Shown here piece after piece: positions 613 to 59,271 of a stretch of 64,000 bases of DNA; positions within the stretch are counted from its first letter, which is position 1, and every line of letters begins with the position of its first letter. Under the pieces are notes generated by a model that was not told where the DNA came from, searched no databases, and worked only from the letters and a program-made list of their open reading frames with translations. This DNA comes from Diadema setosum (taxonomy: Eukaryota > Echinodermata > Echinoidea > Diadematoida > Diadematidae), in contig NC_092688.1 of assembly GCF_964275005.1 (NCBI RefSeq), positions 24,330,940-24,394,939 on the forward strand. Direction: 5' to 3'. Made by a program: the position numbers and the translations under genes.

Positions 613-834
613 CTGTTGTCGCATTTTCGAATTTCCAGCAGAATGGGATTGACACGTTCCAGGTGGGAAAGTAAGTCGATCGTCCGGGTAGTCCTATACA
701 CTGCAGTGTCGCACTACCATTGATGCTGTAGCCTTCATCACAGGTGAGAGTTATCTTAAACCCGAAGCTTGTTATATCAGAGTCCCAATGACCGTTGGGT
801 ACATGACCAGGGTGTACACAATTCCCCACCGAAA
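613..834 (-). CDS. Gene D sushi (CCP) domain exon
   Basis: This 222-nt exon, phase 1 to phase 1, encodes one complete sushi/complement control protein module. It shows VGNCVHPGH, NGHWDSD, ITLTCDEGY, ATLQC, a tryptophan before the last cysteine and IPFC, giving the four-cysteine pattern. All four paralogues have a sushi exon of exactly 222 nt. The donor is GTTTGT, weaker than the GTATGT of gene C. Confidence 0.8.
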
Positions 835-3800
835 CTGTCGTGTTGACGAAAACAAGTAATGCAGATATCATGGTTATAAGTTGGATGTCATTTCTATCTG
901 CTCAACTCTATCTGCATGCAAACAGGTGTAAGATTTTGTGAAGTATCACGAATTCCCTATTTTTTTTTATATATGATTTTCGTTTCGCTTCAAAACACTT
1001 TTTTTTAATGATTTCTTTTTGCTTCAAAACACATACAACTGCGACCAAAGCCAGGAAGATCAAACGCTTGGCAAATGCAGAGATGCAACATCACTAAATA
1101 TACCGACTATGTTCATTCGCTCACTTGCATGCAAGTGCATGTCACAAAACAAACACAATTTACTAATCAGTAACTGATTCATCCTTTCGCCTATTACAGA
1201 GGATCCACTGTGACCATTACCGTAAAGTTGCAACGACAGTATTAAACACAAACGTTCAGGAAATCCACATTTGTAAAATAGATCATACATTGAACTTTTT
1301 TCTTGCAATACACAGTTCTTACACCTATACGATTCATACAAAGAAAAAAGAACAAAAAAACAATTGCATTGCTTATGTCTTTCTCGACTTTTGTCATACT
1401 ATTATCTTAATTTGTTATATATTCATTATTGAATGCTTATAATTCATGGTCTGTAGGCATTTCGTACTTACCGTTGAATAAATAATGGACTTGTTGGTCT
1501 GATTCATGTGCTGCCTGTCTGGGACATGTCCATGTTTGAAAATTACTTCCTTCAGACTCTATCTCCCCGTACGGTTCTGACGGAAAACATTTTGTGTAAA
1601 TCTATTACGTTCAACAGCAGTGTCATATTCTGGGGTTTGTAGAAATAGATAAGCAACAAATTTTATTAGAATGTAAGTCAGATCCAAAGAAAGACAAAGC
1701 CTGAAATGTCCGTCCATCGGCCAGTTAGCATCTGCGAAATCCAGGTTTCCTACAAATGCAAAGCAAGATGATAGTACCCTGGGGAAAAAATACCAATTAT
1801 ACTCTGGTCATGATTATCACAGCAAGCTTTGTTACATACATCATAACATATTAATTCTGATAAGGCTTCCCATCACAATTGATTAAACGCACTTTAACAC
1901 ACCACCAATAACTCAGGGCAGAATTCGAAGTTATATTTTGTTCTTTCATACTCTTAACTTATGGATTCCTTGTTTACAGAATAAAGATAATAATCGATGG
2001 TCAGCATATGCCCCTCGTCCATGCCGTCTGTATTATCAATGTATTATCATCGAATGTATTGGCGTCAAATAGTATTTAGTTGGATGTTGATAATGAAAGA
2101 AAAAAACACATGTTCCTTGCAATTTGGCAACATTCCTAGTCTTTATGGCTTACAGTGTTATTTCAGTGCATTGATATAGTAAATTTCAACATGCAACAAG
2201 CATTGCATTAATAGGCTTACCTTGGCATTTGAGTTTAACAGCCGCATTCGAGGAACAGTCATCGGGTGTCAGTGAACAATCCTTCAAACGTTGAAACCTG
2301 CCTGGAACTATGCATTGATAAATACATGTAATCGTAGAACTCATTTGTAAACCTTTAAAGTCATCGAGAAACTCATACAAAGCGAGGTTACAAAGAAATA
2401 TTCTGAAAGTAAAATCTGAAAATATCTGAATCAAATTGAATTGGATTGAATTGAAAGGCACATAATCATTATAAAGATATGCTTTAACTGCATCAAGTCC
2501 ATCTTGAGATTGAAGAAAAAGGCAAATCTTAACACCATGACTGACATTTTTACTAACAATTTCTTAACTATGTTCTGTAAATGCAGATTTACCGTGTGAC
2601 AGTCTGTAAAAGCATAGCTTTGTTTATTTTTGAAGTCGATATGATTTCAAAAGCATTTCTCTTATGTGCACTTTTTATATTACAATCAAGCAATTCCGCA
2701 ATCACCATTAAAACATGATAAACGTCTAGCATTCTTCCGTGTTACTGTTCTTGGGAATGTTTTAGCCGAATACTCCTCAGCTGCAGGAAAGCCGAGCTCT
2801 CCACACACCAGTCCGGCAGCTTTGGCGTTGAATCCTTCAAAACAGACATATCTGTCGGTTTCGAAGGCGACCATTCCCTCAAGGGGAGAGGGTCCGTCAG
2901 CAAGGGTCACATTAGGTGTTTCTTTAAAGCAAATGATAAATACATAGATATTTTTGAAATGATACCATTCTGGCTTTACGTCCACATCGAAGCATATCAA
3001 AGGAATTATAGCACGATTAAAACCAAGCAGGACTTTGGGAGGGTTGCTGTTTCGAAATAAGAATGATTACAGTTGGTAATGTTTTTTTTTTTTTCTACTA
3101 GAGGATGTACTCCTTTATGAAATATTAAAGACTCCTGTTTTCAAATCTTAAATTTCAATACTTGAAATCTTAATGGGGGGGGGGGGGGCAATAAAGGGTG
3201 CAATAAGATGCAAAAAGTATTGAATAATGTGCTCATATTTAATTTTTTAAAGAGCCCCCTGTTCGCTTCTCGGTATTTTGGCTAAGATCATGTGTAGTAT
3301 CATTGTAATTAGTGTGCGATCGATATATTCCCACATAGATTTTTTTGTGTGTTGTTTTGCGTTGCTTTCGCTACATAATTTCCCAAAAGGAATGCATTTT
3401 CTAATTTTTGAAATATGGTTGAATTAATAGAGGAAATCATCAAATCCAGGCAGTATAACAAGTTATCACAATCCATGGAGATAATCAGATTGAAGAAGTG
3501 AGCCATCTATTTTGTTAGAGGCGTGATGGAAACATCTAATTTGCTTTGTAACTGCGCATTTTACTTTTATATTGCGACCGACATGTCCATAGTACATTAT
3601 CTTCGGCATAGCTGTAAGAGCACATTCATATCAGGTGGTATAGGGACTTGATGGAAGTTGATGTACTATGTTTTTTGCTTTGTTTTTTGTGAGATGCGGA
3701 ATTAAACGAATTTTCAAAATCGAAAGCTAATATACATCGTATGCTTAATCACTAAAAAATATTAATGCCAAAGGTTAACGCTTTGAGTTTTGTTTTTGAT

Positions 3801-5333
3801 AATGAAGACATAGTTTGACGTAAGAGGACATTATGGTAAAGGACAAAAGTGCAATTCCACCCTCGCTTGTACGTTATTGGATTGCAATAAGCTCGTTGTC
3901 GACCGTTTTCTCTGTAGTCAACCTATTTATGCACTTTTTTTTCACTTGATAGAAATGAAACAAAAATGTAAAATACAGGTAGGCCCATTTCAATATCTGT
4001 ACTTGTAATCATAATCATAAGGATATCAATGATTACTTACCCTCGTTACACTTTGCCCTGATGTTGAATTTCACTGGGTAGGTATATATAACGTATAGTG
4101 ATCTTTGTCTGATGAGCAAGCGATAACATGGGGGAAGACGGTATGTCACGCGGAATAACGATAATAGATGACTTGTTAGCTATCTCATCCTGCACATTTA
4201 ACCCTAAACCTAGGTTATTGATTGACTTCACTTCAAGTGAAATTCTCGACCCGCAAGGTGCTTGTACAGTCCAGCTCTCCCCTCTGAGGACGCAATATCT
4301 GTCACACGACAGCTCGCGCTGTACTGGTTCCCCCGAACAGTTTAGAGATAGATCTGCGGTGGATAAAGATGGGGAGATAAAGTGCATCGTGATTCAGTGA
4401 TAAGTCATGAGTTGAAGGACAACAAGCTAGAAGCTAACATTTCTCCTGTCCCTTTTCACTTTTCTTGTAGGTGGAATGTTCACATACTAGTAATCGTTTC
4501 ATCTCTTTTAACTTTAGTTGATTTTTTTTTTCAAGAAAAGATTCCAGTTGGGTTCTGAAGGTGCATTTAAGGGTTTTAGCTTTCCATTCATTAACCTTTT
4601 TTTTTAATTGTTTGTGGAATTCACGACACTCATTGTGGAAATGGGTTTAAAACATTCGAACTAAATGATATAAATGCACACTGGATTTATGAGCACTGTT
4701 TCAGTCTTGAGCTATCTGTTATGGCTTATTAGTGTTTGCGATCACAGGCACACAATTACCTTAAAAGAAGCATGATACACCTATGACATATTACACTGTA
4801 GCACAGGCAAAATATTTACGTCGACAATAACGATTAAATCTAATGACGACGAAATTGAAAACAACTATAGTCGCATTGGGTATGAAACTGCATAAACAAA
4901 TAATGGATCGTGTAATGCGGAATGGCTAGAACCAGGCACATACAATGTACATCTCTCCTCCGTCACACACGCACGACACACACACTCACACACACACACG
5001 TGAAAATGATAATTATTTTATGCAAACAAACACGACAAAAATTGAACATACATATCAACACACAGAACAAGAAAAAATGATTTCTAACAAAAAAAAGCAA
5101 AATTAAAAGGAACAGAAGTTTCACCATCAGGATCAGGAAGAGAAGTCTTTGTGCTCACAGGCGACCCCCTCTTTTAAATTACATTGCAACTCGACAAACC
5201 ATATAGAAAACAAAATGTTATACATACATGTCTCTCTTGACAAAGTGAGCGACGGATAACAGTACAAGAAAACGACAGAGAACCATGTTAGATAGACCAT
5301 CCCTCCGTCCTTTCCGATATTTAAAGCCATCAT
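613..5333 (-). CDS. Gene D: CUB-SRCR-sushi receptor, 3' end beyond the window
   Basis: I assembled this by hand from splice sites and homology to genes C and B. Exons in transcription order are signal peptide (5333-5228), CUB (4353-4041), SRCR first half (2921-2706), SRCR second half (2307-2221) and sushi (834-613). All junctions seen are phase 1. A WSC-like exon present in B and A is represented at 1740-1472 only by a sequence with stops. The domains belong to families that bind carbohydrates, proteins or microbes outside the cell, so a surface or secreted recognition receptor is the natural reading. Stalk, transmembrane and tail exons would lie left of base 1. The gene is most similar to C, including upstream DNA, so D and C are a recent duplicate pair. 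The CUB exon carries the one-base discontinuity seen also in B and C. No known gene name can be assigned. Confidence 0.7.
1472..1740 (-). pseudogene. Gene D: decayed WSC-like exon
   Basis: This aligns with the intact 276-nt WSC-like exons of B and A. The recognisable end reads [14 protein letters not shown] and HYLFN, followed by a good GTAAGT donor. The homologous frame has several stops, including one where the first-block LGCY tyrosine would be followed, and a TGA after PRI that is also present in gene C. Because neighbouring exons are phase 1-1, skipping this exon would keep the reading frame. Confidence 0.55.
2221..2307 (-). CDS. Gene D SRCR domain, second-half exon
   Basis: This is 87 nt, phase 1 to phase 1, with acceptor ATGCATAG and donor GTAAGC. 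It encodes [15 protein letters not shown] and KLKC, the C-terminal part of an SRCR domain. The same 87-nt exon occurs in C (23398-23312) and B (39641-39555). The SRCR module is therefore split at a conserved position throughout the family. Confidence 0.7.
2706..2921 (-). CDS. Gene D SRCR domain, first-half exon
   Basis: This is 216 nt, phase 1 to phase 1. The product matches the N-terminal half of a scavenger receptor cysteine-rich domain: [12 protein letters not shown], then VCFEGF, LVCGELGFPA and RRLSC. The donor after the last codon is GTGATT, which is weak. Gene B has a better donor (GTATAG) at the corresponding place. Intact, unlike the gene C copy, which has a 4-nt insertion. Confidence 0.7.
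4041..4353 (-). CDS. Gene D CUB domain exon
   Basis: The acceptor is CCACCGCAG and the donor GTAAGT. The opening frame reads a diverged CUB domain: [18 protein letters not shown] matches the CUB pattern of W-x-I-x-AP-x-G-x-x-I-x-L-x-F, preceded by two cysteines. The exon is 313 nt, one more than a multiple of three. The frame used by the first ~90 codons ends in a stop just before the donor, while the next frame gives [13 protein letters not shown] and a phase-1 exit matching the next exon. The switch falls at 4081-4087. Confidence 0.65.
4982..4999. repeat. CA microsatellite in gene D intron 1
   Basis: This is a short CA-rich tract within the first intron of gene D. The surrounding intron (4354-5227) shows no other recognisable feature. 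Confidence 0.6.
5228..5333 (-). CDS. Gene D exon 1: signal peptide
   Basis: Candidate ATGs are at 5333, 5330 and 5300. The ATG at 5300 begins MVYLTWFSVV and runs straight into a hydrophobic core, as expected of a secretory signal. The exon ends in phase 1 at a GTATGT donor, leaving a T that joins the AT opening the CUB exon. Gene C has an equivalent exon at 26596-26494 ([10 protein letters not shown]). I favour the 5300 start because the hydrophobic stretch follows it directly; the longer starts are also open in C. Confidence 0.65.
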
Positions 5334-6032: not shown

Positions 6033-7790
6033 TACACGGCGGATAAAAGCATCAATTTTGACACATTGGGTTCCTTGAGGACTATTGAACAATATTAGAC
6101 TAGGAACCCTTTGGGAATTTTAAAGGGAAACACTAAAAATATCAAATTTCAAAATGGCCGACACTTAATTGGCAAAACCCTCACTTTTCATGTAATATGG
6201 GTGATACGATGACAATAATTTCATTATATATTATATATATATATATTTTTTTTGGGGGGGGGGGGTTTGCTTTAGAACCTCGTATAAGCTTGAACGCTGC
6301 GGTAGGAGCATTATTCATATTCTTGCGTAATCTCAAGTCTCTGAACTGCTTGGGGAGGGGTAGGACAAAAAAGGGCGGGACCCCCCCCCCCCTTAAAACA
6401 AATGGTTGGTCGCTTGTTCTTTGCATGTTTTGTCTCGTTTTTGCTCTATACACGGCGGATGAAAGCATATAATTTGGCACATGGATTCCTTCGGGACTAG
6501 GAAACAATATTAGAGGAGCCCTCCTGGAAGGCCTAGGGAAAAAAAAACACACCCACACACCCACACACACACACTCCACACATACACACACAAAGAAGAT
6601 CAAATTTCAAAATGACCGACACGTATGACAAACCTCTCACTTTTCTTGCCACGTAGGTGATGCGATGACAATATTTAGTATAATTATTAAATCTTTATTT
6701 TTGTTTCGTTTAAAACCTGAATTTGGACATTTCGGTGGGAGTATTATTTATATTCTTGCATAATGTAGTCTCTGAATGGCTGAGGAGGGAGGTAGGACAA
6801 AGGGGTGCCCCCCACCCCCCCCCCCCCCCCACCCCCATTTAAACAGTGGTGACTCGCTTGTTCGTTTGCGTGTTTTTGTTTGTTTGCTTGTTTGTTTGTT
6901 TGTTTTTTTCGTTGTGCTTAATACAAGACGCATAAAACTTCAAATTCGGCGCACGGATTCCTTGAGGACTAAGAAACAATATTAGAATAGGAGCCCTCCT
7001 GGAACTTTAAAGGAAATAAAACACACACACACACACACACACAGAAGATAAAGTTTCAAAATGGCCGACGCTTATGGCAAACTCCTCACTTTTCATGTCA
7101 TGTAGATGACACGATGATAATATTTAGTATTATATCTTTATTTTTTGTTTGGTTTAAAACGTTAATTTGGACATTGCGGTAGGAGCATTATTTTTAAATA
7201 TTCTTGCGTAGTATGGTCTCTGAACGGCTGGGGAGGGAGGTAGGACAAACGGGTGCACCCCCCCCCCCTCCCCATTTTAAAAGTGATGCTTGGCTTGTTC
7301 GTTTACGTGCTTCTTTTTTTCGTCTTGCTTTATACATTTCAGATAAAAACATCAAATTTGGGGCACGGATTTCTTGAGGACTATTAAACAATATTTCATT
7401 ATATAAGAGTCCTTTTAAGGAAAGCACACACACACACGCTCAAATTTCTAAATGGCAAGCACTTATGGTAAACTCCTGGCGCTTTTCATGCAATATAGGT
7501 GATTCGATGACAATATTTGTATATTTTTTATTTTTTGTTTGGCTAAGAACCTTTATTTGGACATTGTGGTAGGAGCATTGTTTACATTTTCTTGCGCAAT
7601 ATAGGTGTCTGAACTCGGGGGGGGGGGACTACAAAAGGGGCGGGTTTCCCTAGAAAATTGCTGTTTCCTTGTTCTTTTGAGTGCTCTTTTTTTCGTTGTG
7701 CTTTTACACGGCAGATAATAAAGTTCAAATTCGGCACAAGGTTTCCTTGAGATCATAAAACAATATTACTTAGGAGCCCTCTTATCTGTT
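6033..7790 (+). repeat. Degenerate tandem array, about 5 units of ~370-470 bp
   Basis: Units begin near 6033, 6449, 6922, 7332 and 7705 with variants of ACGGCGGATAAAAGCATC. Each continues through a TTCCTTGAGGACTA block, a CAATATTAGA block, a CAAAATGGCCGACAC block, a GGTAGGAGCATTATT block, a poly-C tract and a CGCTTGTTC block. Unit-to-unit spacing is about 416, 473, 410 and 373 bp. The copies are diverged and have variable CA or C tracts. It looks like an old satellite or transposon-derived expansion. The open frames inside it are low-complexity artefacts. Confidence 0.75.
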
Positions 7791-12721: not shown

Positions 12722-12981
12722 TATTACTTTCAAAATGATTACGAAAATAAAAACATGTCTTTTCATTACACATTACAAAATTATTAATCTATTTTGACTC
12801 CAGTTAACGCTGTGGGATGTTGAGATGTAAGCGTCTACCGTTAAAAGAAAACCTCAGTTGCAAAGAACATTACTATCACGTCATAGATTATTGATTTTTC
12901 CTACCAGAGATCACATTTATTGACACAAAAGGCCAGTCAATATATATGTATGTAGTGAAAACTTTGAGCAAAGAAAATGGG

Positions 12982-13052
12982 TTTACATCGGGATTCGAAC
13001 TCGAGACCTCTGGATAACTAGACCGGTGCTCTAACGGCTGAGCTATTGAAAG
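12982..13052 (-). tRNA. tRNA-like unit, Thr(AGT)-like, probably SINE or pseudogene
   Basis: On the minus strand the unit has a D arm (TAGCTCAGCCGTTAGAGC), an anticodon loop CTAGTTA (AGT in anticodon position) and a T arm GAGTTCGAATCCC. The acceptor arms pair poorly and the anticodon stem has mismatches. It shares flanks with the unit at 13097-13167, so it is more likely a tRNA-derived repeat than a working gene. Confidence 0.5.
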
Positions 13053-13096
13053 CCCTAGATCGGTGTTCGATCGGTGGGACGAACACCGATCTAGGG

Positions 13097-13167
13097 CTTT
13101 CAATAGCTCAGTTGGTAGAGCACCGGTCTAGTAATCCGGAGGTCTCGGGTTCGAATCCCGATGAAAA
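13097..13167 (+). tRNA. tRNA-like unit, Thr(AGT)-like, head-to-head partner
   Basis: The D arm (TAGCTCAGTTGGTAGAGC), anticodon loop CTAGTAA with AGT, and T arm CGGGTTCGAATCCCG are all good. The anticodon stem is better than in its partner. The acceptor ends pair imperfectly and no CCA is encoded. Flanking bases on both sides mirror the minus-strand unit. It may be a real tRNA-Thr, but a tRNA-derived SINE arm is more likely. Confidence 0.55.
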
Positions 13168-13239
13168 ACCATTTTCTTTGCTCAAATTTTTCACTATTTA
13201 TCATTTGTTTCTGGTCAGTATTCCCATTCTTTGTTTCAA

Positions 13240-13246
13240 AACATAT

Positions 13247-13289
<43 letters not shown>

Positions 13290-13319
13290 GTAATATACAT
13301 ATATATATATATATATATA
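13240..13319. repeat. AT dinucleotide microsatellite
   Basis: Alternating TA runs abut the left end of the second 690-bp MITE. This fits insertion into a TA-rich target. Confidence 0.8.
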
Positions 13320-14010
13320 TGTGACCCTGCACCTCAAAACAAACAAAAAGTCGCCAGACATGAATTTTTAGTTAAGACTATATTCTGAAAGAGCAGACTT
13401 TAAGCTTTAAAATGATGTATAACTCAAATCAAATGGACTCTCCTAACGTATCTAAATATTGGAAAGAGAGCACAAACTCGGGAAAAGTGTGAACTGAGAA
13501 AAGAGGCTCGGATGTAAAGTGTCTATTCAAGCGCTTAATCTTTACCAAACCGTGCTGGCTGTGCAATGAATGGGACAAAAAACAGGAAGTAAACCACCAA
13601 AGTAACAACAATGAAGGGATTATTAGATTAAACTGAAATTAAGCATGCCTCATTAACACATTCTGTCCATAATTAATGCCAACTTTCAAAGCAGTAGCAC
13701 TATCCTTTCAAAAGTTATTAGAGTTGAAAGTGAAGAGTGTGGACAAGGTTTTTCAGAAATGAAAAAGGGATTCTAAAGACACACCTAATCACACTATTCT
13801 ACCAAAAATATTCGATAAAAGAATGCTAAAAAACACACTTTCCTGCCCGTTTTATGATACCAAATTTTAGCATAATGTAAAAGAAGACCCGCTCTTTCAG
13901 AAAATATGAAAAAGTCAAGTTCGGCTAGGTTGACCCATTTCACTTATTTTCAGTCCGCACGCAAAATCAGTGTGTGCGACTTTATGTTCGTTTTGAGGTG
14001 CACAGTCACA
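13320..14010 (+). mobile_element. 690-bp MITE, GTGACC family, copy 2
   Basis: This has the same orientation as, and is very similar to, the copy at 12032-12721 over its full length, with matching GTGACCCTGCACC and GGTGCACAGTCACA ends. The two copies are separated by about 600 bp. Confidence 0.8.
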
Positions 14011-15550: not shown

Positions 15551-16300
15551 TTAAGCATGTGGCATGTCTGGTATTCGTGTAAATATGCGCGGTTCAATAT
15601 ACGAGTACTTTTGGCAATAATGCGGTTCTTGGAGTGTCTCTGATTGATCTGGAGTAATTATTCTATCAATATCTGTTTCGAGAACAAGATAAGACATTTT
15701 CATCCACCTTACGCTTTTCGCTAGATTTGCCCGAGTAGATAAATGTAGAGTACAACTGATCATTAAGGTAAGATGGGCGCATTTTCATTTCTACCGATAA
15801 ACGTGTGCTCAGAAACAGGCAGCGTCCCTTGGAGGGTCTCGGATTGGACTGGAGTAATTCTTTCGGTATGTGACTCGAGAATGAGATAGCCATGTTCATC
15901 CACCTCCATCTTTTCGCTTGGTTCGTCCGAGTAGATACATTAGAGTACAATAGATCATTCGGTTCGTCAAAAGAGAGGTACGTTTTGCAGTTCTACCGAC
16001 CGACGTGTACCCGGCGCAAGACTGCGGTTCTTGGAATTTCTTGAATTGGTATGGAATAATCCTACCGGCATTTGCTTCGAGAATAAGAAAGCCATGATCA
16101 TCAATCTCCGGTTTTTCGGTTGGTTTGCCTCAGAGGATAGATGGATGAATGTAATAGGTTATTTCTGTGTGTTGCGAATGCAATGTTATTCTTACGGTCT
16201 GGAGTATTATCACCGGCATTTGATTCAGTAGCGAGGCAGTCATGTTCCTCCAGTCCAGGCTTTTCGCTTGATTTCCTTGAATATAATAACTATGATTGGG
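15551..16300 (-). pseudogene. Degenerate extra tail repeats of gene C
   Basis: Downstream of the tail stop are four more copies of the repeat, in shifting frames. Core variants are HDCLATES (about 16.23 kb), HGFLILEA (16.08 kb), HGYLILES (15.88 kb) and SYLVLETD (15.70 kb), most followed by an ITP-Q or similar block and an IYS start. Tyrosine is replaced by Cys or Phe in two of them. They look like a formerly longer tail, or an alternative 3' exon, now eroded by indels. The last frame ends at 15551. Confidence 0.55.
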
Positions 16301-44200: not shown

Positions 44201-47200
44201 TATATCCATTCCCTAAAAATCGGCTGTCTCCCTGACTGTCAAAGCGCTCCATTAGAAAGCAGATATTTCTAAATTTATTGATCCATTGATTCTATATCAG
44301 GGATTTGGAATTGTGAAAATTTGCTGAACAATGAAATTTGAAGAGTGCTTGCATTGTTGTTACATTCAGAAAAGCCACTGGAGTGGTAAAAGTCGGCGGT
44401 AGGGTCGCAATAAGACAATGTACCATTTTTGACGTTTGATATTCTACTACCAATTGTGACCCGCTACAACAAAAAGGTCCTAAAATCGCGCACGGTCGAA
44501 GCCGTGAAAATCGAGTTTGAAGTCAGAGCATCATAATTTGTCAAAACTTACGATTTTCTGATTTTGACATATTATTGGAGTCTGACATGTCTTCTATCAT
44601 CTGTCGAAATTTTGAAGCAAAATGATGAAAGGAAAGTACAAAAAATAGCGTTTTTCTGGGCCATGTTTTTGGCGTTTCAACGAAGCAGAAACCGGTTCGA
44701 AAATTTGGATTGAGCGCCACAGATAGGCTCCGCCCATAACAACGACCGGAGTGATCTCATTGGTCAGTTTGCTGCTTGCCGCTAACCGAAGCGTGAAGCT
44801 CGCACACTGCCAAGTCGACTGGTGCGTGCGGGCGGGGTGCGCTATGCCCAACCGCTTCTCCTGGCATCCTGGTCACTGATTGGTCGGTGAGGAGACCGCC
44901 GACGCTGTGCTTGAATGAGCATTTCGGGGGTTGCTAGGGTTTACCTTCTATTGTCCGGAGGTGAAAATTGACTAGCGTGTCCCTTGATCGCGATTTCGTC
45001 GCAAGGAAAACTTTTAGGGCGCTTTTCTCGAAACAGCGATTTCCCATACGTCTGGACATGCTCTCTTTTAAACATCGATATCTCCGCAGCCGATTATTTT
45101 TATAATTATTGTTATATATCAATTTAAAGCAGAAAGATTAGGGAATTTTGTCATGCAATTTTCAAATAATCGACCTCACCCGACTTTAGAATCATTTTGT
45201 TGTTCCAACACTCGTTTATTGAAGAAACTGTCTGTAGGCAACAAGTTCATAATAAACACACACACACACGCACATACAATACGAAATCTACCCTTCTGAC
45301 ATACCACACGTTACATGATTAAGGGGGGGGGGGTTGGGATAAACCTGTCACCACGCGTTGATTCTTAGTGAAGCGTGTCCAGCATTTTCCTTACCACTAA
45401 ACAGAGAAAAGATAATGTTGTTTATTTTCATTAGTGTTAATTCGTCTCTCATTCAACGAAGATAACACATAAGCATGCTGAGGCAGTAATGTTACCATAA
45501 CCATTTGAAGACTAGGCCCAAATACACTCTAGCAGATGTCTCTGGAAAATACGTGTTTTAACAAAATCAGCTTGTTCTCAACGGGTTACCACCATAGGTA
45601 GCAAGAGATGGCTGGTAATGATTACAGTAACCGGTGTTACCGCTTTTGACAGAAATGTTGCAAGATCCGACTCGGAATGGTCCACTTTTATTCTAATAGT
45701 CAATATTGTAAGTGAAATACTCAATGTCGGGATATGCAATATCCGATAATCAAGTTCCATTTTTACGGAAGGATGCGCATACTCTTATCTTATTATCGCC
45801 ATTGTCTTCTTGCCATTCCCACATACAACTCAAACTAGTACAATGTTGTTAGAAAACCTTTCTTTTCTCTGTTGAAGTTGCATGTTCTATGATTACGACT
45901 CTGCGATTTCGGAATTTAGTGAGCACTGTATAGTAGTTATGTATTAGTTACATGTAGCAGTTTTTCACAGGACAAAGAAAACCAAAAACAACATTCCAAT
46001 AATCACAGAGCAACTCTTATTACATGTATATCAAAGATGTGACACTAAACAATCAGAAGCAGTGAGATATGATTTATGTATTAATTTTCACCGTATAAAC
46101 CGGCCTTGCTTTTCACTCCGAGGTGCAAGTTATTATTTTGATGAAAGGATTGACTGATTGATTTATTGCTTGATTGATTGATTACTCGCTCAATTATTGG
46201 TTGATTGATCGATCGTTGATTTTTGTTTGATTTTTTCTGCATTCTTATGCGTACAGATAACACAAGTCAATTAAACAAACTTATCGAGTATTGCTTAGAT
46301 CTAATAATTAACACAGGAAAGTGATTTCAATGACTGGTATCATTCAATGATAATGCGATAAATGAACACGAGCATATAATTTTATTATGTTCAGCTGCGT
46401 GTTATTTCATGTTTATTTAAACTTTAGAAGTACATGTGCCTACTGGTCAAGAGACAAATTAAGCAGCTCTCAGTATATCAAACAGAAGTGCAGAAGACCA
46501 CTATCAGAAGCCATTGCTTGAAGAGGAAGAGGGCCTAATTTATAATGTTTTTCATTTTATAAACATTTAATGTAGATATCTCATGCCGTTCATTCTACGG
46601 TAAATATTGAAATTAGGCGTATGTAGCGTAATTAATAAGGCTTCACCAATGCGTATTTATCAAATAGAAGCGACGGTCAGGAACAAAAAACAAAAAAAAA
46701 AAACAAAAAACAAAAAACGATCAGAACAAAATGAAACCAGCAATTTTGTATTAAAGCGTACTAATACATCTGTATGAACCACAACTATCTATATTCACAT
46801 CGACCCAATAATTTATACTTACCATCATAACACTTCACGGTCATGTTGAACTTTGCAGGGTATCTAGATATATAGTCCTACATATCGTATAGTCAGCTTC
46901 GTCTGATGGGCCAGTGATAATACGGGCGAAGACGGCAAGTGACTTACGATACGGATGTTAGACGTTTTGTGTGCTATTTCATCTGATACCTGTAATCCAA
47001 CCCATCTGTTATTGAGAGACTCAATTTTAGTGAGAATTCGCCGTCCAATAGGTGCCTGTATAACCCAACCATAACTGCTGGAGAAACAGTTTGTATTACA
47101 CGAGATCATACGCTCCACAGACTCCTCCATACAGTTCAGAGTTATATCTGCAGGATATAAAAAGGACAAATCAGGCAGTGTTGGCAGGGACAAGTGCGGT

Positions 47201-48093
47201 TATATGGCATAAATGATTTTAATTAGCTAGCTAAGATTGTTACGGTATGATTTTCTTTTTTCATTTGTAGACCTGTTTCGACATATCAAACTGTTCTGTT
47301 ATATTCAATGTTTCACAATGTCATTGATTGTTTAAGAGTGCAAGTAAGTAAGTGAGTAAATCCTCGTTGCATTTATTACTTAATCTCTGTGCTATGAACA
47401 AAATTAAGGATGACTGTTATTAAGTACGCTCGAAAGACCCTGAACTTTTAAGTCCTCTTCTTAAAGCGAAGTTTTTTTTGTTTTTTTGTTTTTTTTTTTT
47501 TTTACTTGTTTATTTTCTATCATCTGTTCCTTTCCGGTGATTTTGGAACAGACCATCTAAAGATAAAACATGATATCATATTTTAGAATATTACCTCAAG
47601 TCGATACACTTGACCCTACGATTTTCAGTTGGTACTTTGGTGCATAGCCAAATGTGACACACTTTGAACTAGTTACGATTATCAAGCTTGATTACAATCT
47701 ATTCTCATCATTCTTCTTAAATCATTCAATTGTAACTTCAGTATTCAGATGCATTGTAATACGCATGATAATCTCCAGTTCCAGTTGAAATAATCATCCC
47801 AGCTCGTTACAATAATGAACCAATGACAGTGTGTAAAGGAAAATTGAAATATGAGTTTCATGCACTCTGGTCTGATGCTCTTCTAGACATATCCATGCTA
47901 CGAATTATGAAATATAGAACGTGATAGCAACTGAAATCCTCTTTAGTAGCAATAATACTCGTTAAGCATTAACATTTTTATAACTATCATAGTAGTAATT
48001 ATGATGTTAATGCTACTTACAGACTGCATCCGTTGAGAAAGTGGGGGAGATACAAGAGATGACACCAGCAAACAGTAATACCACGGCAGCCAT
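31287..48093 (-). CDS. Gene B: full CUB-SRCR-WSC-sushi receptor with EELYAxV tail
   Basis: Twelve exons are assigned: signal peptide 48093-48021, CUB 47147-46823, SRCR halves 40868-40650 and 39641-39555, WSC-like 39054-38779, sushi 37811-37590, stalk 36421-36359, 35933-35874, 35208-35155 and 34719-34660, transmembrane 33894-33780, tail 32256-31287. All extracellular junctions are phase 1; transmembrane to tail is phase 2. If the CUB one-base excess is removed, the summed lengths are divisible by three and give about 840 residues, which strongly supports the model. It is a type I receptor with sugar/protein-binding modules outside and a tyrosine-rich tail inside, presumably a pattern-recognition or self-recognition receptor. 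No orthologue name can be given from sequence alone. Confidence 0.75.
32849..33117. mobile_element. 269-bp MITE, GTGACCCGCTACAAC family
   Basis: The ends TGTGACCCGCTACAACCAAA and, inverted, GTTGTAGCGGGTCACA are good terminal inverted repeats, extended by AAAGGATCCT-type blocks on both sides. It lies in the gene B intron before the tail exon. A partial copy is at 44455-44669. Confidence 0.75.
33395..33600. repeat. CACAGTGTGAA repeat cluster
   Basis: Repeated GTGTGAACACATTGTGAA, CAGTGTGAAAA and inverted TTTTCACACAG motifs form a small imperfect foldback in the gene B transmembrane to tail intron. Confidence 0.45.
33780..33894 (-). CDS. Gene B transmembrane exon
   Basis: This is 115 nt, phase 1 in and phase 2 out. 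A ~22-residue hydrophobic segment (YILGTLLGVALLVLVTVSMA) is followed by WCRYQQKR, a basic cytoplasmic anchor. It has the same length and strong similarity to gene A. Donor GTGTGT. Confidence 0.75.
34660..34719 (-). CDS. Gene B stalk exon 4
   Basis: This is 60 nt, phase 1-1: NGQSTQELMTFHDTAIASS. Same length as gene A exon 55596-55537 (NGQSTREPTAFHETTMSSS). Donor GTAAGT. Confidence 0.65.
35155..35208 (-). CDS. Gene B stalk exon 3
   Basis: This is 54 nt, phase 1-1: KGRYDQDTTARETTSSL. Same length as the gene A counterpart (56020-55967), with the shared TTxRE core. Donor GTGAGT. Confidence 0.65.
   Translation of the reverse strand, partial: TKVGMIKIRRHERRRLL
35874..35933 (-). CDS. Gene B stalk exon 2
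   Basis: This is 60 nt, phase 1-1: SREATKELTTVRGTSVSYS. It aligns with gene A exon 56557-56501 (ATQELTTLKTTMSSS). Donor GTGAGT. Confidence 0.6.
36359..36421 (-). CDS. Gene B stalk exon 1
   Basis: This is 63 nt, phase 1-1. TEWYSTTFSTSTTQTAINTF is Ser/Thr-rich and aligns with TEWHSVNISTSTTQTTINTT of gene A, as expected of a mucin-like O-glycosylated stalk. Donor GTAAGT. Confidence 0.7.
36690..37090 (+). pseudogene. LINE 3' fragment (reverse transcriptase C-terminus)
   Basis: A plus-strand open frame (from 36814) carries HSPSLWNKLPLYIRNAE followed by FKALLKTYQF. This is the typical C-terminal end of CR1/RTE-like non-LTR reverse transcriptases. The part upstream of 36814 is recognisable only with frame changes. 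It is a 5'-truncated, old insertion in the gene B intron between sushi and the first stalk exon. Confidence 0.65.
37590..37811 (-). CDS. Gene B sushi domain exon
   Basis: This is 222 nt, phase 1-1. IGFCNHPGH, ITLTCDKGY, ATFQC, a tryptophan and SCQP complete a four-cysteine sushi module. NITLT, NGSAT and NTSV are possible N-glycosylation sites. The donor is GTCTGT, weaker than consensus. Confidence 0.8.
38779..39054 (-). CDS. Gene B WSC-like domain exon
   Basis: This is 276 nt, phase 1-1, with acceptor TTTCCCACAG and donor GTAAGT. FLGCYEGNQ at the start, DEKCISTC in the middle, TCVCS, then NWTCHSQG and a closing VYYLY follow the order of a WSC domain, a cysteine-rich carbohydrate-binding module. 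It lacks one or two of the usual glycine/cysteine positions, so I call it WSC-like. The homologous exons of C and D are dead. Confidence 0.6.
39555..39641 (-). CDS. Gene B SRCR second-half exon
   Basis: This is 87 nt, phase 1-1. GFQRLSDCP, ECSSN and TLKCR match the SRCR C-terminal half. The acceptor is AATGCACAG and the donor GTAAGG. Confidence 0.7.
40273..40357. repeat. Hairpin with ACAAATGATGCACAGGAT arms
   Basis: Perfect 18-bp arms (40273-40290 and 40340-40357), with a second inner inverted pair GTTAGTGAA/TTCACTAAC, surround a GCGGCGCGC core. It lies within the SRCR intron of gene B, in a CpG-richer stretch (39930-40330) that also contains a CRE-like TGACGTCA at 39971. Confidence 0.7.
40650..40868 (-). 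CDS. Gene B SRCR first-half exon
   Basis: This is 219 nt, phase 1-1, with donor [34 protein letters not shown] and HRVSC follow the SRCR pattern closely, with the VRL start seen in canonical SRCR domains. The exon is intact. Confidence 0.75.
41174..42515 (-). mobile_element. 690-bp MITE family, older copy split by a younger copy
   Basis: The outer copy starts GTGACCGTGCATCACAAAAC at 41174, runs about 105 bp, and resumes after 41965 with TTTTCTGAAAGAGC, ending with GATGCAGGGTCACA at 42515. The two parts join in the order expected of an uninterrupted element. Confidence 0.7.
41279..41965 (-). mobile_element. 690-bp MITE family, younger nested copy
   Basis: Full-length, reverse orientation relative to the copies at 12032 and 13320. 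Starts GTGACCGTTCATCACAAAAC and ends GATGCAGGGTCACA, with TA at both sides. Inserted within the older copy. Confidence 0.75.
42650..43640 (-). other. Possible orphan exon or alternative 5' region within gene B intron
   Basis: On the minus strand a stretch containing an ATG (at 43036) and reading MSMCMVNSLAVGFFLPW ends at a consensus GTAAGT donor (AAAG|GTAAGT, exon end about 42970). The donor could end a first exon of an alternative transcript that skips CUB, but the phase in this frame is 0 and does not match the downstream SRCR exon. A second overlapping frame would give phase 1. Local DNA is richer in CpG. I cannot assign it. Confidence 0.2.
44455..44669. mobile_element. Partial GTGACCCGCTACAAC MITE
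   Basis: Matches the 32849 element from its TIR through TTTCTGGGCCATGTTT, then diverges into GC-richer DNA, so the right end is lost or belongs to a longer variant. Confidence 0.6.
44670..46822. other. Gene B CUB-SRCR intron, remaining part
   Basis: GC-richer DNA to about 44940, then AT-rich DNA with CA and poly-G tracts. No coding exon is seen. The intron totals about 6 kb and also holds the nested MITEs. Confidence 0.4.
46823..47147 (-). CDS. Gene B CUB domain exon
   Basis: Acceptor ATATCCTGCAG and donor GTAAGT. GWVIQAPIGRRILTKIES marks the CUB core, preceded by cysteines in LNCMEE and ISCNTNC. The exon is 325 nt, 12 longer than in C and D and again one more than a multiple of three. The first frame stops at TAG after VGLYI. 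The +1 frame reads YPAKFNMTVKCYD and exits in phase 1. The switch lies within 46863-46881. Confidence 0.65.
48021..48093 (-). CDS. Gene B exon 1: signal peptide
   Basis: ATG at 48093 begins MAAVVLLFAGVISCISP, a short classical signal peptide. The exon ends in phase 1 with a T before GTAAGT, exactly as in genes C and D. The sequence itself differs from the C/D signal peptides. Confidence 0.7.
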
Positions 48094-52971: not shown

Positions 52972-53002
52972 CAATATATATATATATATATATATATTTA
53001 TG

Positions 53003-53063
<61 letters not shown>
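52972..53063. repeat. AT microsatellite
   Basis: Alternating AT run with one TTTATG interruption, about 280 bp downstream of the gene A stop. Confidence 0.85.
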
Positions 53064-53067
<4 letters not shown>

Positions 53068-53341: not shown

Positions 53342-54362
53342 CTACATGTTTGTAACATTTATGTACAGTTCCTCTTGTGATGCCCGCGTGACTTCAGTGT
53401 GGTCTCCTCTTCTTTTGTCCACTTTTGCGTACAACTCTTCGATTGATGAAGGTGTCTTTGCTGTTTTGTTCACCTTTGCGTACAACTCCTCGCATGGTGG
53501 GGGTGCTGTTGATGATGTTTTTGCTGCTTTGTTCACAGTTGCATACAGTTCCTCACAAGGTGGAGATCCTGGTGTGATGGAAACCGGGTTGTCGATGTCA
53601 TGGCTGTTATCTCTTCTGATAAGACTGTATTCGCTTGGGTCGAGACCGTGAGATGTGTCACAATCTATATTGTTGTAAAGGAGGTCTTCAGAATTCAGGT
53701 TTCTTGCTGAAATTAAACCGGAACAAAACATGGTATCATCTCTACCAGAAATCGACTCAGAAGCCGAAGGAACCGGGCCATGGATCTGTTCCAAGTCGTC
53801 ATGAGAGGTTTGATTGATGCAGTCGTATTCACTGTCCAAGCACGAATTGCCAGAATGAGCAAAGACGAGGTCACGTCGTTCGCCAAAGTTAAGGGAATTA
53901 TAACAGCTATCATCAAACAAGCACGCTCTACCACTGATAGACTGAATGTCATCTTTTGTCATACTGTCAGTTTTATTATCAAGGTCTACATCCTGGTATT
54001 CACAGTCTTCATAGCTGTTTGCTGCCTGTTGCAGCGATGTTTCTTGCACGCTGTGGTATTCATTGCAACCCATTTTTTTTTCGGCAGCCAGCGAAATTGT
54101 GCCGGCAGGTTGAGGAACTTCCCTGTCTACATGTACCTCCGCAGTGTTCTGGTAGATGTGGTACGGGTCCCCTTGATGAGGTGAAGCGTCTCCTAATCTG
54201 TTTCCCGCATGGCTGGGTAATGGACGACCATCTGCCCCGGCGATAATACCCGAAGAGTCAACAATATTCGTCTCCCTATGATTCTGAACTGAAGTGTTTA
54301 CAGTATGCATCTGCAAGTGACCGTCATCAGAGTTGCCAGTTACCCTAGTTGTCCTGCGTCTT
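53342..54362 (-). CDS. Gene A cytoplasmic tail exon (four EELY motifs)
   Basis: The terminal exon, entered in phase 2 at TTTACTAG, encodes 339 tail residues and a stop at 53344-53342. Motifs from N to C include DPYHIY, NEYHSV, EYQDV, CYNSL, DSEYDCI (ITIM-like), then EELYATV, EELYAKV, EELYAKV and EELYINV. Against gene B one EELYAKV unit has been gained, or lost in B. The last motif (Y-I-N) again fits a GRB2-type site. There is no catalytic domain. The tail is otherwise conserved with gene B along its whole length. Confidence 0.8.
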
Positions 54363-55353
54363 CTAGTAAATAGAAACGGAGGGGAATTACTATTGACACG
54401 TCCTAAGTATTTGTGTATATTACCGTAAGGATAAATTCAAGCAATTCTTGCTAATATCGCAATCCATGAATTTGACTTCTGCAGCAAAAGCATGCTAGAT
54501 TAATTCCATGATCCTCCAATGTCCTCTCTAGGGCAAAATAATGTTTCTTGCCATTTTCTTTAAATGGGATAAGAAATACGCACTACATAACATATATATA
54601 AAGAGCTTGTTTCCAAATGTCGCTAAGTCCATTGAAAAATGATAGATTTAGCGCTTTTTGGAAGCAAGCTTTTCGTATATACACGTATGGCATTATACAT
54701 TATACATAACATTACCATTACATTAACTGGACACATAGTAGCGGTCTGACACGCATCTTTCCACGGATTAACAATCATCTTCATATCATATTTACCCAAT
54801 GTTAGCATTTAAGATTTGCGTATGAACTTTGACATGACTTCGATAAGCGGATGATGTTCGTGTCAGTTTTAATAGTTTTTTGATATCAATAATGCATCTG
54901 GAATATTTTGAAATAAATGTACATATACATATAAATCTATTTATCCAATAGCACCGACATTGTTAATACCCAAAAACACACGAAAATCAGTCGCACTTTG
55001 TGATTCATGGCTATACATGAACCATAATATTTACACACAATGTTCACACCATTTCATACTATGTAACTTTATCAATAACGTAAAGCTGTAAACACGTACA
55101 GTTGTATCTTCTCTTAAAAAAAGAATGTACAAGTACTTTAATAGCTTATAAATAAATAGAACGGGACACACCTCTTCTGACGGTAGCGACACCATGACAT
55201 GAAAACTATGACAAGGACTAGAAGAGCGACACCCAATAGCGCTCCGAGGATGTACGCAATAAATTTCCTTTCAGGAACTCGAGGATCTGTAAGATGATTC
55301 AATAGGTTGTTCAATCGTTTCCTGGACAAGTGATGTTTCCATATCTCTTTATA

Positions 55354-55389: not shown

Positions 55390-58300
55390 CTATACTACCA
55401 AGACATTTGGCAAAAATATCGTACTGTTATTAACTTTTGACAAAGCAATAAGGAGTACAGGACAAAAAAAAAACCCACAGAGGCAAATAAAGATATTTTA
55501 CTGAATGTGTTACATTTACACGGAGACGCAACTCACTTGAAGAAGACATAGTGGTCTCATGAAATGCCGTTGGCTCTCTGGTAGACTGTCCGTTGTCTGT
55601 AAAGTGAAAAAAAATACAGTGACATGATTAGTTCTTTCAATGTGTGTGCGTGTGTGTATGTGTGTGTGTTGTCAAAATTTAACTGTAAATATCAAATATA
55701 AAATTTCATGAAAACATTTATATCTTTGCTAGTAACAGCTCTGAAAGTCGAAGCGTCAAATTCTTTGAATACTTGAAATGTTTGTTCATGTTTTATATTT
55801 TCTTTTTGTTTTCATTTTTGTCTTATCCAGCTTGTTAATGATGAACCCTTACTATTCTTTCCCAAAGCAGCCTGTCTTTGAACTAATTCAGAGACAATAA
55901 TTGTTACAAAACATTCTTTAGTAAATGACGTATTGGTCTTATAGTATTTTGGATAAGCAAACTCACTTGATGAAGGCGCTGCTTCTCTTGTTGTTGAATA
56001 TGTAGTATACGGTATTTTGCCTGTGAACATTTAAAGTGTGAGTCAGCATCATCACAGAATATAAATTATAAGATAATCTAAGTCCATGTGACGATAACCT
56101 TAATCAGAAACTTGCATTCGTGCAAATGTACTGATAGAGTAGTCATGCACTTCATTTTTCAATTACTATAATGGTGCTAGGCTTATAATTTCTGCTCACT
56201 GAAGGAAAAATATAGCGAACGTAGTTGCTACCTTGATGAATTAAGAAAGTGTACCCATTTTATCTTTATTTTTTTTTCTTTTCAAGAGACAATTCCAAAG
56301 TAGCACTTCTGCATTCTGAGTTTTAGGTGCAGGAGAATATAGAATTTTAACTACTTTTACTTCATGTTTAAGAGATATTAACCTAGTAACACCATTGGGA
56401 ATTGTGCTCGAAGGAAACACTTACATAATTTATGAAAGCATAGGCAAAAATAAAGATGTAATTTCTGAACGTGTAAAGTCTATAAGGACACACAACTCAC
56501 TTGAAGAAGACATGGTGGTCTTTAATGTCGTCAGCTCTTGGGTAGCCTGTCCCTTACCTATTAGAAGTGAGAAAGAACAACAACATAAGTAACTTTCAAA
56601 TCGATGATATTACAAAAAATATTTGCCCTGTTGGAGGCAAGTCAACATCTCAACAACTTAAATTAGTGAAGAAAGAAAGAAGAAAGACAATAAAACCAAA
56701 ATACATCTTTGGACAACAAAAAGTCTTCTGGATGTTTTCATCGAAAGAAAGTAAAAAAAAAAAAAATGCTTGCGCTCAACAAGCATTTTTAGTATAGTTA
56801 TTGACATTAGTTAGTACAATAAAATGATTTTTTTTAAAACAAATAAGGCCAGCAATATCACATGAAAGACATGTTTGAACACAGACACAAGCAAAGGAAA
56901 CTGTTGATTTCACTCAAACAGCAGATTTTATTCGTGCAATACTCACTAGTTGTGTTGATTGTCGTTTGTGTTGTCGAGGTGCTAATATTGACACTATGCC
57001 ATTCAGTATCTACAAAAAAAAAAAAATTACACACAAAAATGGGTAAAACTGTAGTTAATGTAACATTGGTAATCACAGAAGAATGAAAAACAAAATTCAC
57101 TGAAAAAAGACGGTACTGCTATTATGAACCTAGACTGGAATACACAAAGGTTTAATATTAAGAAAAAGTCATCATGAGCACTCTTCACGTACACTCTGTA
57201 TTGCTACAATAAAATATCAAAATAAGCAGCTATTAATGATATTTGGTAAATAAAAACATTACGATATTAATAGCATACAGGTCGTACGATTTTCAACTCT
57301 CATCGACTGTTAACTTGTCATCATTGTTAGGTCTACTTGACGGACATAAGAAACAACAAACTAAACTTAAAATAGAATAGACTTGTTTGCTTTTAGTATG
57401 TCCTGCTTTCCTTTTGTTTCTAGTCTATTATAATAATCATTCCTGAAAGAAGAGACACTAATATATCATTTATTATGCTAATCCGTTCAAAGATGATATC
57501 ACTAACCCATTAAATCCAAAACTCATATGCCCATTTTTGTTTAGACTATTGTCCCCTCCATTTTTGTGAGCCTGATAATACCAATATTTCTTGTATGGAA
57601 ATAGAAAATCCAGAATGTAATTTGGATCATTGACATATCCTGATAGTTTTACGCACTCATTGAGCACATCCAATCAATAATATTATACAAAATGTTCAAT
57701 GCTGCTACATATTGCTCTGTTATTTTTTTCCTTACCTAATTTTCATGTTCCATTTTTACCACTTTCAGCACATGTGGAAACTAATGAAAAGTTTATGTTC
57801 AAAAACATTACATACACTTCATTATGTGCAAACATCACACATGCCGCTTGAATTCATACTTTCGTCCTTTATCTTTTAAAATATAACAGGGTTATGTTGT
57901 AACAGACCGTTTGTTTCACTTTCGACGGGTCGGCAAGAAGGGACTGACGTGTTCCAAACCGGGAAGTAAGTTGACCATCCGGGTAGCTCCACACACTGCA
58001 ACGTAGCGCTGCCATTGATGACGTAGCCTTTGTCACAGGTGAGAGTTATCTTGGACCCATATCTCGTGATATTTGAGTTCCAGTGACCATTTATCACATG
58101 TCCGGGGAGATTACAAAACCCTACCGAAACTATAAAAGAAGACGGAAAGAGGAATACCGTGAAAGTATTTTTGTATGAATAAAGATACCAAAGGAAAGTC
58201 CGAAGGAACACAGTGATTTGGACTTTACACTCCTTGTGTCGATGAATAATGATGTTGAGTTTACATTTCTAATGAGAAATTTACACCGAAGGTCCATATT

Positions 58301-59271
58301 GCATCATATTGAGCTGTTTAAATATTGCTTTATACTACTGGACAATAACTGGCATGAAAGTGGAAGAAATTGTATCGGTGAAGGGTAAAAATTATTGATT
58401 AAAAAAGTACTGAATATTTTCGAGGTACCAGACATGTGGCAAGAACTGTAAGCAAAGTATGTAATATGATTTTTGATTTTTGATAAAATTCGAAATATGA
58501 AAGTACATGAATTGATACATTGTACTGCTATCAGATGTGTTTTTCTTTGTAGCAAGTGCATTTATGTATATCACTCCGATATTTAAGGTAAGAGTGCGCG
58601 AATCCTAGAGAAATGTGAAAACCTTAGATTAAAATACTGTTCACACTGGTCTCGGTGGCTGTCATTGAGTTTCCAAAGTCACTTTTTTTTTTTCAACTCA
58701 AGAAAGGATAAATAAGTTTAAGTAAGTTTGATTAAAACCATTATTCAAAATCAAATGTCTTATCATAAAAACGTCTCAATCCTGCTTGGTTGTTGTTGTT
58801 TTTTTTTAATCGTTTATTTCTTGTTTTGCAAATATGTCCGAGGTTAATGGGTTAAATTATTTTTGAATTAAGACTTAAATCACATTTCCAATAAACATTT
58901 GATTGAAAAGTAATACTCCTATTTGAGAGTTTAAGTTTCCATTTCAACATTTTTTGCATCGCAAATATTTGTTTTTTCTTAATTTTGGAACTCACTGTCA
59001 TATAGAAAGTAGACGAAATGACCGGATCCAAGGTTTCCTTGGATGGGACATGTCCAGTTGTGTGAATAACTTTTGTCGAAAAGTACGTCGATATACGCTT
59101 TGGATTGCAAAAATACACAAATCCCTCGGTGTATGACAGCAATTTCATTGTGTCTGGATTCCCTTTTGCAGGTAGATATACACTTCTCATCGGAATGAAC
59201 GTCGAATTCTTGTGTAGAATGAAAGGGGACTGTTTGTTGGTTGCCTTTGTAGCATCCGAGAAATCCAGGCT
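53342..59271 (-). CDS. Gene A: WSC-sushi receptor with EELYAxV tail, 5' exons missing
   Basis: Eight exons are assigned: WSC-like 59271-58996, sushi 58129-57908, stalk 57009-56947, 56557-56501, 56020-55967 and 55596-55537, transmembrane 55286-55172, tail 54362-53342. Junction phases are 1 throughout and 2 at transmembrane to tail, identical to gene B, and the visible part is 621 residues with no break. Signal peptide, CUB and SRCR exons are not between the WSC exon and the LINE that begins near 60000. They may lie beyond base 64000 on the far side of the LINE, or be lost. The tail has one more EELYAKV motif than gene B. Confidence 0.75.
54598..54680. repeat. Hairpin of the GAAGAGC family downstream of the gene A transmembrane exon
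   Basis: AAAGAGCTTGTTTCCAAATG with GCTAAGTCCAT and, inverted after a short loop, AGATTTAGCG and GGAAGCAAGCTT. It lies in the transmembrane to tail intron. Confidence 0.55.
55172..55286 (-). CDS. Gene A transmembrane exon
   Basis: This is 115 nt, phase 1 in and phase 2 out. YILGALLGVALLVLVIVFMS is the membrane span, followed by WCRYRQKR. Strongly similar to gene B. Donor GTGTGT. Confidence 0.75.
55358..55388. repeat. CA microsatellite
   Basis: Pure CA run about 70 bp upstream (in gene direction) of the transmembrane exon of gene A. Confidence 0.85.
55537..55596 (-). CDS. Gene A stalk exon 4
   Basis: This is 60 nt, phase 1-1: NGQSTREPTAFHETTMSSS. Donor GTGAGT. Aligned with gene B stalk exon 4. 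Confidence 0.65.
55967..56020 (-). CDS. Gene A stalk exon 3
   Basis: This is 54 nt, phase 1-1: KIPYTTYSTTREAAPSS. Donor GTGAGT. Same length as the gene B counterpart. Confidence 0.65.
56501..56557 (-). CDS. Gene A stalk exon 2
   Basis: This is 57 nt, phase 1-1, using acceptor ACTTCTAATAG: KGQATQELTTLKTTMSSS. Donor GTGAGT. Confidence 0.6.
56947..57009 (-). CDS. Gene A stalk exon 1
   Basis: This is 63 nt, phase 1-1: TEWHSVNISTSTTQTTINTT. Ser/Thr-rich, aligned with gene B stalk exon 1. Donor GTGAGT; acceptor follows a long T run. Confidence 0.7.
57908..58129 (-). CDS. Gene A sushi domain exon
   Basis: This is 222 nt, phase 1-1. VGFCNLPGH, ITLTCDKGY, ATLQC, tryptophan and PSCRP make an intact four-cysteine module. 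It is closest to gene B. Donor GTCTGT. Confidence 0.8.
58996..59271 (-). CDS. Gene A WSC-like domain exon
   Basis: This is 276 nt, phase 1-1, with donor GTGAGT. FLGCYKGNQQ, DEKCISTCK, GICVF and NWTCPIQGN, then VYFLYD, follow the WSC order and match gene B along the whole length. Fully open. It has no ATG in this frame at the start, consistent with an internal exon. Confidence 0.6.

Follow-up and report, generated by a model that had tools for sequence, protein, structure and literature searches.

Receptors that combine similar outer domains with opposite cytoplasmic tails are central to natural killer (NK)-type self/non-self decisions, and are known from vertebrates and Botryllus. The fester co-receptors (FcoR) of Botryllus schlosseri are described as type I receptors that form a large multigene family, with a sushi domain and a long tail carrying immunoreceptor tyrosine-based inhibitory motifs (ITIMs), hemi-immunoreceptor tyrosine-based activation motifs (hemITAMs) or core Yxx[ILV] motifs, the kind of tail varying by locus, and similar tail motifs are reported there for the cnidarian Hydractinia (PMC12065747). 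The vertebrate NK-complex C-type lectin-like receptors (Dectin-1, CLEC-2, NKR-P1) are described as clustered, with ITIM or hemITAM tails (PMC11484026), and ruminant WC1 (group B SRCR) is reported to have phosphorylated tail tyrosines and to bind bacteria (PMC8356672). In the sea urchin Strongylocentrotus purpuratus the SRCR superfamily is reported to include tandem expansions, with SRCR genes that also carry sushi (38), WSC (36) and CUB (35) domains (PMC10855680). Here we describe a tandem cluster of related receptor genes with likenesses to all of these, in a 64,000-nucleotide stretch of the Diadema setosum genome (the window; RefSeq assembly GCF_964275005.1, contig NC_092688.1, positions 24,330,940 to 24,394,939). 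The best explanation of its sequence, to which we give a probability of about one half, is a family of paired inhibitory and activating receptors.

Overview of the locus and the gene family

The cluster comprises four paralogous gene pieces, all in one orientation on the minus strand and defined by self-comparison of open frames together with splice-site inspection: A (59271-53342), B (48093-31287), C (26596-15554) and D (5330-613). The original prediction, made from the letters of this stretch, had proposed tandemly arranged, single-pass receptors with tyrosine-motif tails, in what is here an echinoderm, and this is supported, as is the layout of one exon per domain with a two-exon SRCR, sushi, a serine/threonine (Ser/Thr) stalk, a transmembrane segment and a tyrosine-rich tail, which is seen in the exon phases and splice sites. 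Its four paralogues in one orientation are present as four pieces on one strand, but only B is complete, A and D being partial; and its multi-ITIM-like tail is borne out by an excess of Yxx[ILV] in A and B, but there are two kinds of tail, the second, in C, being marked by DE[HN]GYLxL.

A protein search with the B model returned 36 sequences at expectation values (E) of 1e-3 or below, 35 of them from Diadema and the other an SRCR-repeat protein, and a profile of 23 relatives returned 41 at the same threshold, 39 from Diadema and two fish SRCR proteins; the profile search scored the 7997 candidates sharing most words. The three remaining matches have SRCR domains and no others. Together the searches yield 44 Diadema clusters, 33 from D. 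setosum, of which 20 give one and the same 48.8-Mb record as their longest contig, and 11 from D. antillarum, and named full-length relatives come from these two species only. This is a multigene family seen so far only in Diadema within the database searched, from which other diadematoids may be absent. Relatives are designated here by P-numbers, which are annotated (predicted) database proteins, one representative per 90% identity cluster (three sequences for P0001, two for P0004), so that an identical annotated protein may be hidden behind a representative. The nearest relative of A is P0004 (D. setosum); that of the B tail is P0001 (D. antillarum) and that of the B ectodomain is P0002 (D. 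setosum). Three relatives of 309-337 residues (P0038, P0039 and P0040), in which no transmembrane segment was found, are possibly secreted forms or partial models. Among the papers listed in searches of the open-licence part of PubMed Central, none was on these Diadema genes, as judged by titles and the starts of abstracts.

The predicted product is a type I membrane receptor in which a signal peptide and a CUB-like exon, the latter probably vestigial or skipped, precede single SRCR, WSC-like and sushi domains, a Ser/Thr stalk, a transmembrane helix and a long tail rich in tyrosines. Its ectodomain would bind a microbial or self ligand, and a kinase would phosphorylate the tail tyrosines, with recruitment of SH2 proteins. 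The Yxx[ILV]/ITIM-like tails of A and B may recruit SHP-type phosphatases or Grb2-type adaptors and so dampen or modulate a signal, and the DE[HN]GYLxL hemITAM-like tail of C may recruit a Syk-type kinase and activate. We infer expression, ligand, SH2 partners, the sign of the signal and the immune role. Recognition in development, between gametes or in tissue identity, such as self/non-self recognition as in Botryllus, is a rather unlikely alternative to an immune role: an allorecognition family with this mix of motifs offers a close functional parallel (PMC12065747), and nothing speaks directly against this alternative, but sea urchin SRCR expansions have been discussed as immune (PMC10855680).

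Two classes of cytoplasmic tail

The tails of A (exon 53342-54362, including the stop) and B (31287-32256, including the stop) are rich in tyrosine motifs. Of the 13 tyrosines in the A tail, ten stand in Yxx[ILV] (2.1 expected; equalled in 0 of 5000 shuffles); in the B tail it is seven of 11 (1.5 expected; equalled in 1 of 5000), and the narrower [SIVL]xYxx[ILV] is present four times in A (2 of 5000 shuffles as high). Their motifs include SCYNSL, SEYDxI and repeated EELYAxV (three copies in A, two in B), ending in EELYINV (A) or EELYMNV (B), and the B tail is 94% identical to P0001 over 323 residues. A full immunoreceptor tyrosine-based activation motif (ITAM) was considered for A and rejected, the single pattern match being equalled in 184 of 5000 shuffles.

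The second class of tail carries DE[HN]GYLxL, to which P0011 and C add STSIY-like repeats. The tail region of C (15554-17203) has an open frame at 17203-16733 containing DENGYLAL (16792-16769), and decayed repeats, DDHGFLIL (16102-16079) and DEHGYLIL (15900-15877). A 16-base tandem repeat lies at 16488-16582, amid these decayed repeats.

Among 41 annotated proteins (three of the 44 were dropped, the end of the sushi domain not being found) 25 are ITIM-class, 11 hemITAM-class, five neither and none both by the rule used. Motif counts cover 34 tails, the transmembrane finder having failed for the other 10 of the 44 proteins; 11 of them have the pattern [DE]E[DEHNSC][GC]Y..L, against 3 of 6800 shuffled tails. 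Nine of the 11 are DE[HN]GYLVL, never alongside LYAxV; the looser [DE]E[DEHNSC][GC]Y..L also matches DESCYNSL in P0030 and P0042, both of which have LYAxV.

The same tails might belong to a family of co-receptors with a single kind of signal, like WC1, CD5 and CD6, in which tails of both classes serve as multi-docking scaffolds to modulate another receptor and are not divided into inhibitory and activating kinds. YxNV is a Grb2-type motif, and A and B have Yxx[ILV] repeats together with a terminal YxNV; WC1, moreover, is an SRCR co-receptor family whose tail tyrosines are reported to be phosphorylated (PMC8356672). We consider this explanation doubtful, in that the two tail classes have opposite counterparts in vertebrates.

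Tail classes among similar ectodomains

A maximum-likelihood tree was built from 41 ectodomains (40 annotated proteins and B, with P0033 excluded at fewer than 130 residues). The hemITAM label changes seven times on this tree, at least five of the changes being forced by well-supported branches, and a single hemITAM clade (10 versus 26) is rejected (approximately unbiased test, p-AU 0.0009). Such repeated switching of tail class among related ectodomains is behaviour like that of paired receptors. The paired-receptor trait of nearly identical ectodomains with different tail classes is seen in P0016 and P0025, both gene predictions, which are 94.2% identical over 260 ectodomain residues, about 70% at the stalk and transmembrane segment, and 0-36% per 30-residue block of the tail; the ectodomains of P0008 and P0011 are 97.3% identical. 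In the DNA of the window, the ectodomain and stalk of C are nearest to P0019 and P0028, which are ITIM-class, and a hemITAM-class tail lies 2-4 kilobases (kb) downstream; from the C sushi exon to position 15401 the only tail matches found were hemITAM-class. These observations point, tentatively, to a paired immune-type system of the Diadema lineage's own, which may well have arisen by exon exchange that repeatedly re-joined SRCR-WSC-sushi ectodomains to ITIM-like or hemITAM-like tails, convergent with the NK complex and Botryllus FcoR.

Several points weigh against paired receptors, a reading drawn from sequence and gene predictions. The strict ITIM is I/V/LxYxxI/V/L (PMC11484026), and one such motif is present in A (LLYNNI) and none in B, the remaining motifs having serine at position -2; EELYAxV, with glutamate at -2, is not an ITIM, and the two [SIVL]xYxx[ILV] motifs in B do not reach significance (equalled in 257 of 5000 shuffles). 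DE[HN]GYLxL is one residue off the hemITAM consensus DEDGYxxL (PMC11484026), at the third position, and two hemITAM-class proteins stray from the motif, P0034 with GYLVI and P0035 with the tyrosine replaced. Nor are the classes wholly separate, as P0011 has an ITIM-class tail start followed by hemITAM repeats. On the tree, hemITAM labels cluster only weakly (21 of 500 shuffles need as few changes) and ITIM labels not at all (252 of 500), as expected of swapping but also of mis-joined models, and the tails in the annotation, being predictions made across tandem arrays, may be mis-joined. The sole case at the DNA level of an ectodomain of one class with a tail of the other, C, has a broken SRCR exon, and a frame break in the CUB-like exon, described below, leaves the join between signal peptide and receptor unexplained unless that exon is skipped.

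Were tail swapping an artefact of annotation, predictions would have fused ectodomains to a neighbour's tail, and the locus would hold a plain ITIM-like family with a separate tail-bearing family nearby. All 44 relatives are predictions, three of them (P0015, P0028 and P0037) flagged LOW QUALITY, P0011 fuses the two kinds of tail, and the window genes share one orientation. We nonetheless find this explanation unlikely, for the same ectodomain type is joined to a hemITAM tail in both species (P0025 in D. setosum, P0029 in D. antillarum), and in C, whose ectodomain and stalk resemble those of P0019, a hemITAM-class tail is the only one found before the next gene (matches to P0011 left out).

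Extracellular domains

The SRCR domain is encoded by two exons, in B (40650-40868 and 39555-39641), C (23747-23966 and 23312-23398) and D (2706-2921, intact, and 2221-2301); with the D exons joined it matches the Pfam model at E 2.5e-7 (31.4 bits, cut-off 26.1). There is a single SRCR domain in each of B, C and D, and a single SRCR stretch in P0002. The sushi exon of A (57908-58129) matches Pfam Sushi at E 1.9e-8 (35 bits, cut-off 20.7), and the corresponding exons lie at 37590-37811 in B, 21110-21331 in C and 613-834 in D. Both domains are present in all 23 aligned relatives at E<=0.1. The predicted structure of P0002 has a mean predicted local distance difference test score (pLDDT) of 39.9, with 64-87 by blocks in the SRCR region and below 50 in most of the tail.

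The WSC-like exon is less certain. That of A (58996-59271, phase 1-1) is 96.7% identical over 92 residues to D. setosum P0004 and scores 16 bits, below the Pfam cut-off of 27.8; the WSC profile is found in three of 23 whole relatives at E<=0.1 and in eight of nine exons at E<=1 (best 2.2e-5), and there is no WSC match among PDB sequences. B has a corresponding exon at 38779-39054, and remnants are present in C (22566-22661, the 3' part, resembling P0019) and D (1472-1576). The C and D exons are degraded, with three common 1-nucleotide gaps relative to A and B and, by reading, an in-frame TAG. The WSC loss in the C/D subfamily looks old, since P0019 and P0028 of D. setosum retain this short remnant too.

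For the CUB-like exon (46823-47147 in B, 25241-25553 in C, 4041-4353 in D), none of the three copies matches any Pfam model, and no PDB sequence matches at E<=10. A structural model has a pLDDT of 47, too poor to count as proof, and no CUB is seen among 50 of its 480 Foldseek matches; a fold assignment from Foldseek was set aside, the matches being meaningless at that pLDDT. A search with the CUB region of B gave 20 candidates, none at E<=0.1, and likewise did not return P0003, which is 65% identical to B over 57 residues. CUB-like is thus a motif-level reading only, and unproven. Of the domains named in the original prediction, SRCR and sushi pass their Pfam cut-offs, WSC falls below its own and CUB is unmatched, and the fixed CUB-SRCR-WSC-sushi combination does not stand, CUB being unproven and frame-broken and WSC lost in the C/D subfamily.

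Gene organization and integrity

The domain exons are symmetric (phase 1), and are followed by short Ser/Thr stalk exons, a transmembrane exon and a long tyrosine-rich tail exon; in A and B the domain and stalk exons are phase 1-1 and the transmembrane exon ends in phase 2, by reading of splice sites. B is the sole piece that spans signal peptide to tail within the window, its signal-peptide exon (coding part) being at 48021-48093. A is represented by the WSC-like exon through the tail stop, and the sequence upstream of it (59272-64000) has no convincing SRCR, CUB or signal-peptide match (best E 0.37). The signal-peptide exons of C and D are at 26494-26596 and 5228-5330. D stops with its sushi exon at position 613, at the window edge, and its stalk, transmembrane segment and tail would fall outside the window.

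There are four stalk exons in A (55537-57009; 57009-56947, 56557-56501, 56020-55967 and 55596-55537) and four in B (34660-36421; about 36421-36359, 35933-35874, 35208-35155 and 34719-34660, with ends partly from splice-site reading). The short Ser/Thr exons of A and B are alike in size and ending, and their number differs among relatives, which suggests that stalk length is set by exon duplication. The stalk exons of C (19300-20190; 20190-20137 and 19371-19300) match P0019 and P0028, themselves with the other tail class. Transmembrane exons are at 55172-55286 in A, which matches P0004, and 33780-33894 in B, and a probable one, with its donor unsettled, is at 17510-17630 in C.

B is open from SRCR to tail, and D is open in SRCR and sushi. 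C is probably a pseudogene, because a 4-nucleotide insertion within 23829-23820 leads to a stop in SRCR exon 1 and the tail repeats are decayed. Open frames of 339 and 323 codons span the tails of A and B, whose ratio of nonsynonymous to synonymous substitution rates (dN/dS) is 0.47 over 313 codons (p 8e-6). The original prediction spoke of a diversifying cluster, but pairwise dN/dS of the window genes gives no evidence of positive selection, being below 1 in every finite comparison except one of 22 codons, in which C and D are compared over the second part of SRCR exon 1 (1.19). It is improbable that the window genes are mostly decaying copies: C has its SRCR frameshift and decayed tail repeats, C and D a degraded WSC, and B, C and D the CUB break, but the tails of A and B are open and constrained, and B keeps open frames in SRCR, WSC and sushi.

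Frame break in the CUB-like exon

The CUB-like exon changes frame in B, C and D: its first 88 codons lie in one frame and its final codons (YPxKFNxxxKC, followed by a GTAAG donor) in another. The two parts are separated by TA-rich spacers of 37 nucleotides in B (46896-46860) and 25 nucleotides in both C (25302-25278) and D (4102-4078), all 1 mod 3. By reading, the P0004 and P0022 peptides imply other frame offsets. Just past the break, four residues before the last cysteine of the exon, is the methionine at which 24 of the 44 annotated Diadema proteins begin; among the other 20, none combines a signal peptide, an entire CUB-like exon and SRCR within its first 95 residues. Skipping the exon preserves the reading frame, by the exon phases, and the simplest reading is that the exon lost its frame at a slippery spacer and today is probably skipped or vestigial.

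Two ways of splicing out the break were considered and rejected. A tiny intron in the spacer would have fitting GT..AG lengths of 18-31 nucleotides, which are too short for animal introns and disagree between B and C/D, and no conserved internal donor within the exon is seen in the alignment. A programmed +1 frameshift at a conserved break, or a switch between a short secreted CUB-like product with the exon kept and the receptor with it skipped, is very improbable: the single offset shared by all three genes, an indel-free run of 88 codons with dN/dS 0.35 between B and D (p 1e-4), the conserved donor and in-frame downstream codons, and phases permitting skipping would fit, but in the younger pair C-D constraint on the exon is no longer clear (dN/dS 0.64, p 0.27), unlike the first part of SRCR exon 1 (0.18, p 0.001) and sushi (0.24, p 0.0004), the P0004 and P0022 offsets differ as expected of a slipping TA-rich spacer, and no shared shift motif was noticed.

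Other features of the window

On the plus strand, a 566-codon open frame (61768-63468) with PHD finger and endonuclease/exonuclease/phosphatase matches is probably a piece of a retroelement lacking long terminal repeats (non-LTR). Two tRNA-Thr(AGT)-like genes are on opposite strands (12979-13053, minus; 13096-13170, plus), one also matched in Rfam, and their region has repeats in common with 41.2-42.6 and 59.5-60.0 kb. A local repeat family with several related copies is present at 6137-7572, and long TA/AT dinucleotide arrays, intronic and intergenic, at 13243-13320, 19142-19239, 27427-27602 and 52974-53064.

Comparison with known receptor systems

The FcoR have immunoglobulin (Ig) domains (V and C2), with no SRCR or WSC among the domains described for them, and sit in the fuhc allorecognition locus (PMC12065747), whereas the 22 families listed at E<=0.1 across 23 Diadema relatives include none of Ig type. 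Neither protein search returned a match named S. purpuratus; the module set is not new, however, because SRCR genes of that species use WSC, sushi and CUB too. WC1 has several tandem SRCR domains, no WSC or sushi and no inhibitory/activating tail split, and the Diadema genes differ from the WC1/CD163 group in having one SRCR each. The NK-complex C-type lectin-like receptors have a different fold and type II topology, and no sequence match to them was seen.

If the paired-receptor reading is true, the locus offers a defined group of receptors for experiments in Diadema; diadematoid urchins are reported to have suffered mass mortalities from a scuticociliate (PMC12865139). The family would work like the Botryllus FcoR, the NK-complex receptors and WC1, while by domain content it belongs with none of them, and this echinoderm, SRCR-based case would then represent the same logic built again from other parts.

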